Shown: positions 3,198 through 15,551 of the stretch, piece after piece
Layout: every line of letters begins with the position of its first letter
Position numbering within the stretch: position 1 is the stretch's first letter
Assembly (NCBI GenBank): GCA_024683035.1
Contig: JAIKYQ010000025.1
Location: 1 to 34,296 of the forward strand
Origin: Eubacterium sp.
Lineage (GTDB): Bacteria > Bacillota > Clostridia > Lachnospirales > Lachnospiraceae
DNA length: 34,296 bases
Reading direction: 5' to 3'
Made by a program: the position numbers and the translations under genes
Notes under the pieces: generated by a model
The model's database searches: none
Told to the model about the DNA's origin: nothing
What the model saw: the letters and a program-made list of their open reading frames with translations, nothing else

Positions 3198-4367
3198 ATG
3201 GCTAAAATCAATGTCATATCCGGTTTTCTGGGTGCCGGAAAAACAACGCTGATCAAAAAACTGCTGAGCGAAGCGCTTGCAGGGCAGCAGATCGTACTGA
3301 TTGAAAATGAATTTGGCGAGATCGGGATCGACGGCGGTTTCCTGAAGGATGCCGGTATTGAGATCAAAGAAATGAACTCCGGCTGTATCTGCTGTTCGCT
3401 GGTCGGAGATTTCGGCACAGCGCTGAAGGAAGTGGTGGATACCTATCATCCGGACCGTGTGATCATCGAGCCGTCCGGTGTGGGCAAGCTGTCCGATGTG
3501 ATCCATGCCATTGAAAACAACGCAGAGGAAGCCGGTCTGGAACTGGATTCGGCAGCAACGGTTGTCGATGTGACAAAATGTAAGATCTATCTTAAAAACT
3601 TCGGGGAATTCTTCAAAAACCAGGTGCAGGCAGCCGGTACGATCGTGCTCAGCAGAATGGATACACCGAAGGCCACTCCGGAAAAGGTGGAGGAAGTGCT
3701 CCACATGCTGCGGGAACTGAACCCGAACGCCACGATCATAACCACGCCGGTGGAAGAACTGGGCGGCGTCAAGGTTCTGGAAACCATGCAGGGCAAGAAG
3801 ATCGATCTGTCCCTCGTGGAGGACGATGAAGAAGAACACGAGCACCATCACCATCATGAGCATGAGGACGAAGAGCATGAGCATCACCACTATCATGAAC
3901 ATGATGAGGACGAAGAGCATGAACACCACCATCATCATGAACATGATGAGGACGAAGAGCATGAGCATCACCATCATCATGAACATGATGAGGACGAAGA
4001 GCATGAGCACCATCACCACCATGAACATGATGAGGAAGAGCATGAACATCACCACCATCATCATCACGGACATCATCACCACCATGCGGATGAGGTCTTT
4101 GACAGCTGGGGGAAGGAGACGATCCGGAAATACACGCAGGAAGAGATCCGGAAAAACCTGGAGACGCTTTCCGAGGATGAGACGTACGGACAGGTGCTTC
4201 GTGCAAAAGGGATGGTCGAAGCAACTGACGGAACCTGGATTTACTTTGATATGGTCCCGGAAGAAATCGATGTCCGTACCGGCGATCCGGAATACACCGG
4301 CCGTCTCTGTGTGATCGGCGCAAAGCTGAATGAGGAAAAACTGGCGGCTCTGTTCGGATTGGGCTGA
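3198..4367 (+). CDS. CobW/COG0523-family GTPase with a histidine-rich metal-binding insert
   Basis: Member of the G3E GTPase family that includes the zinc metallochaperones YciC/ZagA and ZNG1. The Walker A motif is GFLGAGKTT (9-17, Lys15). The family's metal site is CICC (63-66), switch II is IIEPSG (89-94), and the guanine-specificity motif is the variant SRMD (152-155). Residues 214-296 are an acidic His-rich stretch with 47 His in 83 residues, built from 14-residue repeats. The CobW C-terminal domain follows (about 300-389). CICC plus the His tract indicates Zn, Ni or Co handling; zinc is the likeliest by family, inferred only. GGAGG lies seven bases before the ATG. The second GTPase gene starts 20 bases after the stop. 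Confidence 0.92.
   Translation: MAKINVISGFLGAGKTTLIKKLLSEALAGQQIVLIENEFGEIGIDGGFLKDAGIEIKEMNSGCICCSLVGDFGTALKEVVDTYHPDRVIIEPSGVGKLSDVIHAIENNAEEAGLELDSAATVVDVTKCKIYLKNFGEFFKNQVQAAGTIVLSRMDTPKATPEKVEEVLHMLRELNPNATIITTPVEELGGVKVLETMQGKKIDLSLVEDDEEEHEHHHHHEHEDEEHEHHHYHEHDEDEEHEHHHHHEHDEDEEHEHHHHHEHDEDEEHEHHHHHEHDEEEHEHHHHHHHGHHHHHADEVFDSWGKETIRKYTQEEIRKNLETLSEDETYGQVLRAKGMVEATDGTWIYFDMVPEEIDVRTGDPEYTGRLCVIGAKLNEEKLAALFGLG
3837..4085 (+). repeat. In-frame tandem repeat encoding the His/Glu/Asp tract
   Basis: Codons for residues 214-296 form about five near-identical 42-bp units, each coding for a variant of HEHHHHHEHDEDEE, and end in a longer run of His codons. Units differ mainly at synonymous CAT/CAC positions. 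The high identity suggests recent expansion by slippage or unequal recombination, so copy number may differ between strains and is prone to assembly error. Confidence 0.9.
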
Positions 4368-4387
4368 ATGTATTTGGTGAGTAAACT

Positions 4388-5347
4388 ATGAATTACGAAG
4401 ACATAAAAGTACCGGTATATCTGATCAACGGTTTTCTGGATGCAGGGAAGACTTCGTTCCTGAATTTTACGATCCGTCAGGACTATTTCCAGATTGAGGA
4501 GACAACGCTTCTGCTGGTCTGTGAAGAAGGCGAAGAAGAGTATGATGACGAAGAGCTGCTGAGAGAGTATCATACCGTGGTCGAGGTCATCGAAGAAGAA
4601 GAGGATTTCAAGCTGGGGACGCTGCGCGCCCTGCAGGCCAAATATGATCCGTCCCGTGTGATCATCGAGTTCAATCCGCTCTGGGGTGTGGCCAAACTGG
4701 AACAGATGCGCCTGCCGAAGGGCTGGGGCATCATGCAGGAAATTGTGATCGTGGATGCGGAGACTTTCTCTGTCTACATGAACAACATGAAAGCCATGTT
4801 TGTGGAAATGGCCCGCAATGCCGAAATGGTCCTGTTCAACCGGAGCAGCAAAAAGCTGCCGCTGGCCAATTTCCGGCGCAGCATCAAGGTCTTCAATCCG
4901 GGCAGTGATGTCCAGTTTATGGGAGAAGACGGCCGCCCGGTAGATATTTTTGAAGACTCGCTGCCGTATGACCTGACAAAGGAACCGATTGAGATCGAAG
5001 ATATCGATTTCGGCATTTTCTTTGTGGATATGCAGGATAATCCGGATAACTATCAGGGGAAAACGGTGCATTTCAAAGGGCAGGTGCTGAAGAATTCCAA
5101 CCTTCCGGAGGACTCGTTCATTCCGGCACGTCAGGCCATGACCTGCTGTGCAGAGGATATCCAGTACATCGGGTATCTGTGCAAGAGCCGGGAAGCCTCC
5201 CGGCTGAAAGACCGTTCCTGGGTAGATGTGACGGCGAGGATCACCAAAGAGTACCTGCCTATAGCCAGAAGAGAGGAGCCGGTCCTGCAGGCTGTCTCGA
5301 TCAAACCGGCTGCACCGCCGGAAACAGAATTAGTATACTTCACCTGA
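4388..5347 (+). CDS. CobW-like GTPase fused to a YcgQ-type (DUF1980/TIGR03943) domain
   Basis: The N-terminal half is a CobW-like P-loop domain: GFLDAGKTS (15-23, Lys21), then IIEFNPLWG (92-100) where the family has IIEPSG. The specificity motif is degenerate (NRSS, 151-154) and the family CxCC motif is absent. The C-terminal half (about 205-319) resembles the soluble domain of YcgQ: an OB-fold-like start (GKTVHFKGQVL), the IPARQAMTCCAEDIQYIG block with Cys253-Cys254, Cys265, then SWVDVTARI. YcgQ normally partners the permease YcgR. The fusion suggests a GTPase coupled to a metal-binding or permease-partner module. It follows the His-rich GTPase by 20 bp and precedes pth by 16 bp. GTP binding may be weakened. 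The domain match is from memory of the family pattern. Confidence 0.82.
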   Translation: MNYEDIKVPVYLINGFLDAGKTSFLNFTIRQDYFQIEETTLLLVCEEGEEEYDDEELLREYHTVVEVIEEEEDFKLGTLRALQAKYDPSRVIIEFNPLWGVAKLEQMRLPKGWGIMQEIVIVDAETFSVYMNNMKAMFVEMARNAEMVLFNRSSKKLPLANFRRSIKVFNPGSDVQFMGEDGRPVDIFEDSLPYDLTKEPIEIEDIDFGIFFVDMQDNPDNYQGKTVHFKGQVLKNSNLPEDSFIPARQAMTCCAEDIQYIGYLCKSREASRLKDRSWVDVTARITKEYLPIARREEPVLQAVSIKPAAPPETELVYFT

Positions 5348-9344: not shown

Positions 9345-9373
9345 TTGACGATACTTTCGCCGGGGGCTATAAT
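9345..9373 (+). promoter_or_regulatory. Promoter of the foldase-lgt-ATPase-like-cysE unit
   Basis: TTGACG (9345-9350), exactly 17 bp, TATAAT (9368-9373). It starts 24 bp after the mfd stop and ends 33 bp before the lipoprotein start, giving a very short leader. Confidence 0.88.
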
Positions 9374-10698: not shown

Positions 10699-11475
10699 AT
10701 GTACAATGATTTGTTCAGCATCGGGCCGTTTACGTTTCATACGTATGGCCTGATGACGGCGATCGGTATCATAGCAGCCTATCTGCTGATGGCGCGCCGT
10801 GCAAAACAGAATAACTTTACGGAAGAACAACAGAGTAAGACCTTTGGTCTTATTCTGTTTTGCCTGATTTTCGGGTATCTGGGATCCAAGATCCTGTATA
10901 TACTTACGATCCTGCCGCGTCTGCGGGAGGATCCTGCCGTATTCCTGCAGTCGCTGTCCGGCGGCTGGGTTGTTTTCGGGGGGTTGCTGGGAGGCGTGTT
11001 CGGTGCCTGGCTGTTCTGCCGCTGGCAGAAACTGTCCGTCGGCAAGTACTTTGATCTGGCCTTTCCTGCAGTGGCGCTGGCGCAGGCCTTCGGAAGAGTC
11101 GGCTGTTTCTTTGCCGGCTGCTGCTACGGCGTTGAAACAGACAGCGCCTTTTCCATTGTGTTTCAGCATTCACAATACGCTCCCAATCACGTGCATCTGG
11201 TTCCGACGCAGCTTATCTCGGCTGTTTTGGACCTGGCGCTCTGTCTGTTTTTACTCTGGTATGAAAAAAACAAAGAAAAGTACAGAGGCGAACTGGCCGC
11301 ACTGTATCTGATCCTATACAGTGCCGGACGGTTTGTGCTGGAATTCTGGCGCGGTGATCTGATACGGGGTGCGGTGGGACCGCTGTCCACGTCACAGTTT
11401 ATCGGGCTGTTTACACTTCTGGCCGGGATCATCCTGCTGATGCTGATCCGAGGGAAGAAGGGGGAGGAAGCATGA
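10699..11475 (+). CDS. lgt: Prolipoprotein diacylglyceryl transferase
   Basis: Integral membrane enzyme that transfers diacylglycerol from phosphatidylglycerol to the lipobox cysteine. The 258-residue product has the usual multiple membrane helices. The N-terminus MYNDLFSIGPFTFHTYGLM contains the family His. The Lgt signature appears as GRVGCFFAGCCYG, the Cys-rich clostridial form of GRxGNFxNxExxG. A conserved GGLLGG helix precedes it. The ribosome binding site is weak (GCGGAAGA, about 15 bases upstream). The gene follows a lipoprotein substrate gene, and its TGA overlaps the next start by four bases (ATGA), indicating translational coupling with the ATPase-like gene. Confidence 0.95.
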   Translation: MYNDLFSIGPFTFHTYGLMTAIGIIAAYLLMARRAKQNNFTEEQQSKTFGLILFCLIFGYLGSKILYILTILPRLREDPAVFLQSLSGGWVVFGGLLGGVFGAWLFCRWQKLSVGKYFDLAFPAVALAQAFGRVGCFFAGCCYGVETDSAFSIVFQHSQYAPNHVHLVPTQLISAVLDLALCLFLLWYEKNKEKYRGELAALYLILYSAGRFVLEFWRGDLIRGAVGPLSTSQFIGLFTLLAGIILLMLIRGKKGEEA

Positions 11476-12959
11476 GTCACGAAGAACCTTCTGTACAGAG
11501 AAAAACCCCACTGGAGAAAATCTCTCTGGAAATGATCATGATCGTGCTGGCGGCAGTCGGTGCTGTCGTGATCGGAAAGTATCCGGAAGCAGTGGCCGTG
11601 ATCCTGCTGTATCTGTTCGTGAAGCTGGTGGAAAAGCAGGCGGTTAAAAAAAGTCGTGAGAAAATTGCCGCTTCCGCTGTGCTTTCGGTGAAAAACGGAT
11701 GGACGTATGAAGAAGCCGTATCCCGGGAAACGCGGACGGAGCGGCTTATCCGGCGCTTTTCCGGAATCTTTACCCCGGCGGTCCTGGCAGGCGCCGTCGT
11801 TGTTGCCGTGGTGCCTTCGATCGTAACGGGAAACACGGCATACTGGATCCGGACGGCCTGTTCCTTTCTGGTGATCGGCTGTATCGGGACGCTGGTCGCT
11901 TCGGTTTCACTGGCTTTTTCCTGCGGGATTGCGGTTTCCACCCGCCGCGGCGTTTTGTTCAAAAGCGGGCAGCCCATGGAAACGATCAATAATATGCGTC
12001 TGTTTGTTACCGGCAAAACGAATGTTTTGACGGACGCACAGTACGGACTGCAGCGGGTTGTGCCCGCCATTGCCTTTGAACCAGGAAACGGACAGGAAGA
12101 AAAAGAACAGGAAACAGAAGAAGAGTTCGTACTGCGGCTCTGTGCAGGAGCCATGAAAAACACAGAGGATCCGGTTTTTGCATGTGTGGAACGGGCGGCA
12201 GAAGTATGGAAAGTGACACCGGATACGCCGGAAGAAGTGCAGGAAGAGGCCGGACAGGGAGTCTGTGCGCGTCTGCCGGAGGGGCTTGTCTGCGCCGGTA
12301 CACGGGAATACCTTATGCGCAGGGGCATCACAGTGGCGCCGCCGCTGCAGGCATACGGTCTGCAGATCTGTGTGGCGCTGGGCCATGACCATATAGGGAC
12401 AATGCTGCTGGCTGACCGTGTGAACAAAGGAGCGGAAAGTCTGCTGAATGCGGCGCGCCATGTCGGAGCCAAAACTGCGGTACTGACAGAAGAAAGCGAG
12501 ATCAATGCCAATGCCATTGCCAAACAGCTGAGCATAGATCTGAGCTACGGGTCGCTGACCCCGGCCGGGAAGCAAAGTGTGATCAAAGATATGCGCAGAA
12601 AAGTCGGCACGATGCTCTATATCGGCAGCGGACTCCGGGATGCGGCGGTTATGGAAAGTGCGGATGTCAGCGGGACCCTGAGCAGCGGAACACAGGAAGC
12701 CGTCCGTGCGGCGGATATCCTGTATATGAGCAAAGAACTGAAGCCGGCAGAAGACTCGATCGATCTGGCTTTCGTAACGACGCGGATCGCCAGTGAAAAT
12801 ATTCTTCTGTCCCTTCTGATCAAAGCCGGCGTGATATTTCTGGGCTTTGTGGGCCATGCCAATCTGTGGCTGGCCATAATAGCGGAAACGGCCGTTGCCG
12901 TGATCTGTATCTTCAATGCCATCCGGCTTCTCTATTTCGGCAAATACCGGCTGCGTTAA
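11472..12959 (+). CDS. Catalytically dead P1B-type ATPase-like membrane protein
   Basis: The 495-residue frame aligns along its length with CadA/ZntA-type metal ATPases but lacks their catalytic residues. After the first helices (about 18-55) the actuator domain with its TGE loop is essentially missing: the sequence passes from KKSREKI to [20 protein letters not shown]. The CPC metal site reads CIG (137-139). The phosphorylation motif DKTGTLT reads GKTNVLT (181-187), with the acceptor Asp replaced by Gly. HP reads DP (233-234), TGDN reads TEES (339-342), and GDGxND reads GSGLRD (385-390). The two C-terminal helices are intact. The frame is long and uninterrupted and overlaps lgt by four bases, so it looks like a maintained pseudoenzyme rather than a decaying gene. 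Its role is unknown. Confidence 0.85.
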
Positions 12960-13012: not shown

Positions 13013-13957
13013 ATGGAATTCAGCGGAAAAGCAGAAGGTCTTATCGAAAGAATTATGGAAAGTTACCGGGAGCATCCGGAAAGCACAAGGCTGTCCGGTG
13101 CAGGCGGTCTGAACCGGGAGCTTCTGATCGATGTCCTGTACCGGATCAGGGAAGTGCTTTTTCCCGGTTTTTATGACAAAAGTCGGGTGCGGGCCGAGTA
13201 TGTCCGGTATATTGTCGGGGAAAAGATCGAGTATATCCAATACCATCTGACGAAACAGATCACGACAGCACTGGCTACGCAGCCGGAAAACCGGCAGGTT
13301 CCCCGGCAGGAACTGCAGGAGAGGGCAGCGGCTATTGCAGCGGATTTTCTGGATCAGATCCCGAATCTCAGAGATATTCTGGCAACGGATCTGCAGGCTG
13401 CCTTTGACGGTGATCCGGCGGCTTACAGTACTGATGAGATCGTTCTGAGTTACCCGGGCATTCTGGCTATTACCACCTACCGGATCGCGCATGAACTGTG
13501 GGTACGGGGCGTGCCGCTGATCCCGCGGGTCATGTCGGAGCATGCACATAATATAACCGGGATCGACATTCATCCGGGTGCCACGATCGGCCGGTATTTC
13601 TTTATCGACCACGGTACGGGTATTGTTATCGGCGAGACGACCGAGATCGGAGATAATGTCAAGATCTATCAGGGTGTCACGCTGGGCGGTCTGTCCACGA
13701 GAAAAGGGCAGGAACTCAAAGGAGTCAAACGGCATCCCACGCTGGGAAATCATGTGACCATTTATTCCGGAACTTCGGTACTCGGCGGGGAAACGATCAT
13801 CGGCGACAACGTAACGGTCGGCGGCAATACGTTTGTGATCCACTCCATTCCGTCGGATACCCGTGTCAGCGCACGGGCGCCGGAACTGGAAATGCACAGC
13901 GGGCTGGCGGAGGATTTCAAAGACTCTATCCACGGTGAAAAAGCAGAAGAAAAGTAA
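13013..13957 (+). CDS. cysE: Serine O-acetyltransferase (EpsC/CysE type)
   Basis: Makes O-acetylserine from serine and acetyl-CoA, the committed step to cysteine. The 314-residue protein has a helical N-terminal half and a left-handed beta-helix of hexapeptide repeats (about 183-295). The catalytic dyad corresponds to Asp185 in IDIHPG and His200 in IDHGTG, with the same 15-residue spacing as Asp143/His158 in Escherichia coli. The QGVTLGG block and a conserved KRHPTLG follow. The ATG at 13013 was chosen because GGAGG precedes it by seven bases; the frame is open further upstream, but that part lies inside the preceding gene. It ends the lgt operon, while its partner cysK has its own promoter 2.2 kb downstream. 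Confidence 0.94.
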
Positions 13958-15008: not shown

Positions 15009-15551
15009 ATGGAGATCAGTAAGAAAAAAGTGGATATGCCCGCGGAAGCTGCCGCAGGCGCAAAGAAGGCGGCGAAACCGGAAAAAATCGTGGAAGAGCG
15101 GATCGTGAAAACGGCGGATTTTGAGCCGGTCGCGGATGCAAAAACCAGAAAGACGGCGGGAAGGACGGCCGGCCGGAAAGCGGCTGCATCGTCCGGCAGT
15201 ACAGTGCGGACGCGTCAGGCAGCAGTTCCGGACACCGTAAAAACAGAAGCGGCCCCTGCCGGAGGCGCCGTACAGGCACTCGGTATGGTGGAAACACGCG
15301 GACAGATCGCTGCCATCGAAGCGGCAGATGCCATGTGTAAGACCGCAGATGTCCATCTGATCGGTGAAACGATGATCGGGCGCGGCATGGTCACAGTCAT
15401 GGTCCGCGGCGATGTGGCGGCCGTAAAGGCAGCAGTAGATGCAGGCGCCGCCCGGGCCTCCGCGGTCGGGGAGCTGAAATCGGTGCATGTGATCCCACGC
15501 CCGGATACAGATGTGGAGATCCTTCTGCCCGGATACCGGAAGAAAAGCTGA
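15009..15551 (+). CDS. Bacterial microcompartment shell protein (BMC-H) with long basic N-terminal extension
   Basis: Residues 89-172 form one BMC domain very like PduA/Eut[48 protein letters not shown] and [12 protein letters not shown]. Such proteins form hexamers that tile the microcompartment facet and carry a central pore. The pore loop, IGSG in PduA, is IGRG here (Arg125). The first 88 residues are an Ala/Lys/Arg-rich, probably disordered extension that ordinary ~90-105-residue BMC-H proteins lack. GGAG lies eight bases before the ATG. The gene has its own promoter and terminator and follows the aldolase by 92 bp. The extension could bind cargo, nucleic acid or another shell face; this is inference. 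Confidence 0.93.

Follow-up and report, generated by a model that had tools for sequence, protein, structure and literature searches.

Directly downstream of lgt, a Eubacterium sp. genome (Lachnospiraceae) carries a gene for a P-type ATPase descendant that very probably no longer pumps and is nevertheless kept by selection. The window analysed here is the whole 34,296-nt stretch of contig JAIKYQ010000025.1, in which the gene order around this pseudoenzyme is mfd, a lipoprotein gene, lgt, the pseudoenzyme gene and cysE. Our best explanation, to which we give about an even chance as a whole, is a catalytically dead, selected membrane scaffold or regulator made with Lgt. On this view it descends from a heavy-metal pump of the Zn/Cd type (P1B, TGEP group) and has lost catalysis, and purifying selection has preserved it in a lineage that comprises two species of one Lachnospiraceae genus. 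The initial annotation had described a 495-codon frame that overlaps lgt by four bases, and both are present in the sequence:

10699..11475, + strand: lgt, prolipoprotein diacylglyceryl transferase (Pfam LGT, E=1.4e-60)
11463..11467, + strand: GGAGG, likely ribosome-binding site of the pseudoenzyme gene (read from the sequence)
11472-11475, + strand: overlap of the lgt stop and the pseudoenzyme start, 4 bases, ATGA (sequence)
11472..12959, + strand: P1B-ATPase-derived pseudoenzyme, 495 aa (open frame of 495 codons)
13013..13957, + strand: cysE, serine acetyltransferase, the next gene on the same strand (Pfam SATase_N and Hexapep)

The product of the upstream lipoprotein gene has an LAGCG lipobox, and a Pfam scan returned no family above cut-off for it. 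The top promoter-like site of a promoter scan lies ahead of this gene (9345-9373), and in the gap between the pseudoenzyme gene and cysE the top terminator-like stem is on the opposite strand (12999-12983).

A search for homologues with the same changes beside lgt yielded an ortholog, 56% identical, in another species of this genus (G013). It too is located between lgt and cysE, and its likely ATG start falls within lgt, 14 bases from the end of that gene. The G013 contig matches public record CACZSZ010000223.1 (MAG RUG12916, Lachnospiraceae), and the host genus apparently consists of rumen bacteria. The ortholog shares the actuator deletion and most of the motif losses: CPC has become HTS, DKTGT has become GKQGI and TGDN has become TEES, with HP and GDG retained. 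The ortholog in another species, at the matching locus and likewise without an actuator, led us to reject both an assembly error and recent decay; an oddity of a lone genome was likewise dismissed, the second species carrying the gene.

All five motif replacements proposed in the initial annotation (CPC to CIG, DKTGT to GKTNV, HP to DP, TGDN to TEES and GDGxND to GSGLRD) read as claimed. The proposed deletion of the actuator domain is borne out by alignment with 57 intact P1B ATPases and by a truncated Pfam match, which comprises a HAD domain and only model positions 102-179 of the 181 of E1-E2_ATPase; helices MA and MB and any N-terminal metal-binding part are lost besides. Along the protein, the altered and retained parts are as follows:

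11526..11651, + strand: core helices M1 and M2, residues 19-60, with no MA, MB or N-terminal metal-binding region ahead (alignment, fold model)
11664..11711, + strand: short linker at residues 65-80, where the pumps have the actuator domain (alignment, fold model)
11880..11888, + strand: CIG at residues 137-139, where M4 of the pumps has the CPC metal site; the ortholog reads HTS (alignment)
12012..12026, + strand: GKTNV, residues 181-185, in place of DKTGT, the phosphorylated Asp gone; GKQGI in the ortholog (alignment)
12168..12173, + strand: DP, residues 233-234, in place of HP; HP retained in the ortholog (alignment)
12264..12293, + strand: Cys265 and Cys274, both in the ortholog, opposed across strands 263-268 and 271-276 of a hairpin predicted in the N domain (fold model)
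12486..12497, + strand: TEES at residues 339-342 instead of TGD[N/S], the same in the ortholog (alignment)
12624..12641, + strand: GSGLRD at residues 385-390 instead of GDGIND, with Asp390 retained; the ortholog reads GDGVRD (alignment)
12741..12944, + strand: helices M5-M6 with Lys451 and Glu472, at the places of ZntA Lys693 and Asp714 (alignment, fold model)

The proline that follows the CPC site is lost together with it, and the N-domain GN has become GT. Intact pumps show 149 alignment columns with conservation of 95% or more; both pseudoenzymes keep 53 of these and both have changed 46, just one of the two keeps a further 30, and the remaining 20 fall in gaps. Three features of a functional pump are absent in both species, namely the Asp of DKTG[T], the TGE-bearing actuator domain and the transmembrane CPx site, and instead of the eight-helix P1B layout (MA, MB, M1-M6) there are six core helices only. 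The Asp of DKTG is the residue that is phosphorylated, and the TGE motif acts in dephosphorylation (PMC11970713). With both gone, the normal cycle should be impossible, and we infer from the sequence that the protein is unable to go through the E1/E2 cycle and is not a pump.

The statement that every key motif has been lost was too strong. The losses stand, yet Lys367 and Asp390 are still present in the P domain, Lys451 is kept, Glu472 in M6 supplies an acidic residue at the position of ZntA Asp714, and the ortholog has HP and GDGVRD. These remnants bear on whether ATP-driven or HAD-type catalysis could persist through shifted residues, which we consider highly improbable: Lys367 and Asp390 belong to the HAD fold, the window copy retains GQG and the ortholog retains HP in its N domain, but both species have Gly where the HAD nucleophile belongs, TGD has turned into TEE, the N-domain GN reads GT and there is no actuator.

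Profile scores place the protein at the edge of its family. With TIGR01525 the window copy reaches 217 bits and the ortholog 203, against a cut-off of 346 and 537-547 bits for intact relatives, whereas with the general P-type model TIGR01494 the pseudoenzyme scores 66 bits, above the cut-off of 62.3. Judged from these sequences, it is a P-type ATPase by descent and, by the features tested, no functional P1B pump. As it just passes the general model, it would be labelled a pump, which is a warning for annotation.

The protein also evolves as one under constraint. The initial annotation had called it a maintained pseudoenzyme, and this is well supported by the ortholog with the same deletion and by strong purifying selection. 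Between the two species, the one pair on which selection was measured, dN/dS is 0.27 (NG86, LWL85) or 0.19 (ML), with a bootstrap range of 0.19-0.35; a neutral value was not found. For the same pair, lgt gives 0.07-0.12 and cysE 0.07-0.15. Fourfold sites of the orthologs are 41% identical, near saturation, and the divergence is therefore old. A simple drift simulation run to half of this divergence produced about 15 stops and never fewer than 6. A decaying gene, or a translational spacer with no protein function, would agree with the lost catalytic parts and with an evolution faster than that of the neighbours (56% identity against 83% for lgt and 77% for cysE). The frame is, however, open in both species, and dN/dS stays at 0.19-0.35 despite near-saturated silent sites, which argues for constraint on the protein beyond its length and makes decay very improbable. 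In addition, the two orthologs, the only sequences known, share replacements at 43 positions that never occur in 34 TGEP relatives, and this suggests a new constraint, as far as two sequences can indicate one.

Constraint is spread unevenly. M5-M6 (residues 426-495) is the strictest part (73% identity, dN/dS 0.14), the C part of the P domain comes second by identity (64%, dN/dS 0.26), M1-M4 is looser (45-46% identity, dN/dS 0.31-0.41), and the P and N domains are constrained (dN/dS 0.20-0.26). This pattern can be set against a passive membrane path, in which the six-helix core, without ATP or an actuator, would let an ion or small molecule through in the manner of a channel or facilitator. The persistence of six core helices and of the Lys451/Glu472 pair, with M5-M6 strictest, would suit such a path. 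We nonetheless regard it as unlikely, given that the CPC site and the following Pro are gone, that M3-M4, the would-be lining, is among the loosest parts (46% identity), and that a channel has no need of P and N domains, which are constrained all the same.

A second possibility is a sensor of metal or redox state that would act through new cysteines (Cys265/Cys274, Cys130) and signal by a change of shape. The orthologs have five cysteines in common (130, 224, 265, 274 and 479), of which Cys274 occurs in none of the 34 TGEP relatives and Cys130 in one; Cys265 and Cys274 are opposed in the predicted hairpin, their pairing being read from the strand register of the model; and sulfur-metabolism genes lie at the same locus. 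Five shared cysteines are, on the other hand, not far above expectation at 56% identity, and the protein has neither the His/Cys-rich N terminus nor the HMA domain nor the CPC site of the pumps, so that a sensor, too, seems improbable.

In line with the layout proposed in the initial annotation, an AlphaFold2 model built from an alignment of the ortholog and 28 intact relatives (pLDDT 87.8, pTM 0.82) retains the six core helices M1-M6 and both the P and the N domain, with only a short link at the place of the actuator. The top Foldseek match was the zinc pump ZntA (4umw; TM 0.67, normalised by query length), with CopA and others matched too. The model leans on the intact relatives, which came from a viral-contig scan; the predicted fold is favoured by these pumps in the alignment, and a model from the two orthologs alone was poor (pLDDT 40).

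The nearest relatives are Zn/Cd-type pumps of Lachnospiraceae with TGEP instead of TGES, at 32-38% identity. Since all those examined are intact, the losses are derived, and the pseudoenzyme descends from a working pump. With these TGEP-type ATPases (L009, 856 aa; L066; L070) it shares M3-M6 and the P/N layout, but the pumps keep TGEP, CPC, DKTGT, HP, TGD and GDGIND and have N-terminal His/Cys-rich repeats and/or an HMA domain; several stand beside an ArsR-type regulator, as Lachnospiraceae TGEP pumps often do. The N-terminal repeats of the pumps L112-L131 are long, for example CGCGHEHHHH, and of very different lengths between genera. Sequence similarity to the ZntA/CadA zinc-cadmium pumps (4umv/4umw; TIGR01525, TIGR01512) extends over residues 79-487, and the zinc pump 4umv is the best solved relative by sequence; unlike them, the pseudoenzyme is without the actuator, CPC, the DKTGT Asp and MA/MB, and it falls below the family cut-offs.

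In a tree, the two pseudoenzymes group at 100% on a very long branch, too long for the pair to be placed among the TGEP pumps: constrained placements with genus g295 (p-AU 0.72) or with L009 and its kin (p-AU 0.66) were both retained. An intact homologue at this locus that would point to recent decay was not found; the nearest case is in g295, another genus, where the gene of an intact TGEP pump converges with lgt at a distance of 1.8-3.2 kb (G436, G309). This pump could mark the source of the pseudoenzyme, one genus being thin evidence. At two g295 loci (L135, 8448-13330; L136, 8349-14643), a feoB-like gene is on the other side of the pump.

The pseudoenzyme has a narrow distribution. Of 16 species of the genus, two carry it, and the other 14 gave no comparable match, several of these genomes being incomplete (in G001, G006 and G014 the contig stops at lgt or soon after). 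Elsewhere, cysE comes immediately after lgt in G010 (same genus) and in G025 (another genus), and further genomes have mtnA or different genes between the two or next to them. A scan of public genome contigs found the single ortholog only, and searches of samples from the larger family (397 genomes) and order (392 genomes), with the three best first-look candidates scored per genome, found no third member. On the simplest history, the gene entered the lgt-cysE gap in the ancestor of the two species. It overlaps the end of lgt in both occurrences, which share one ancestor, and does not adjoin lgt in other species with an assembled locus. The proposed coupling to lgt is supported as gene position only, in the two of 16 species that yielded the gene, and lgt occurs elsewhere without the pseudoenzyme.

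For metal pumping, this genome has intact CadA-like and CopA-like genes at other loci. The pseudoenzyme might act as a dominant partner or decoy of these pumps, and pseudoenzymes often regulate other proteins (review, PMC10211241). We consider this role quite unlikely: the intact pumps are only 25-30% identical to it in the shared region, and their genes are unlinked to it. P1B pumps are, moreover, usually described as monomers.

The reading we prefer is that of a membrane-anchored scaffold or regulatory partner, with contacts that would run through the P domain and M5-M6 and with synthesis together with Lgt. The sequences show that both species have given up the phosphorylated Asp, the whole actuator, CPC, TGD and several nucleotide contacts, while the six-helix core and the P/N shell have stayed constrained. 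That the actual role is one of scaffold or regulator we put at about even odds. To name Lgt or its lipoprotein clients as the partner is a guess from gene position, and position is likewise what prompts the guess of a link to lipoprotein processing. More tentative is a new envelope function made with Lgt, possibly modulating lipoprotein processing or sensing via the new cysteine pair, for a selected P-type ATPase pseudoenzyme for which we found no earlier description.

P-type ATPases are textbook pumps that need a phosphorylated Asp, an actuator and ATP. A lineage that has discarded all three and yet remained under selection until silent sites saturated suggests that the scaffold itself can be useful, and the pseudoenzyme offers a small system for asking what for. 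It resembles pseudokinases and pseudophosphatases, in which catalytic residues are likewise lost and the rest is under selection, in a review that mentions no P-type ATPase or transporter (PMC10211241). Our literature search, covering few subscription papers, found no description that combined P-type ATPase with pseudoenzyme or pseudo-ATPase and nothing useful on lgt with P-type ATPases.

Two further groups of genes lie in the window. Six kilobases upstream of the pseudoenzyme gene, positions 3198-5347 encode a CobW/COG0523-type GTPase that contains a long His/Glu-rich tract and, after it, a CobW-like protein with DUF1980_C; the two look like a zinc-handling pair. After cysE, the segment 14059-18484, whose genes are named from sequence reading, holds a class II aldolase-like gene and an apparent microcompartment shell-type protein (15009-15551), followed downstream by a cysK-like gene and an O-acetylhomoserine sulfhydrylase-like gene.
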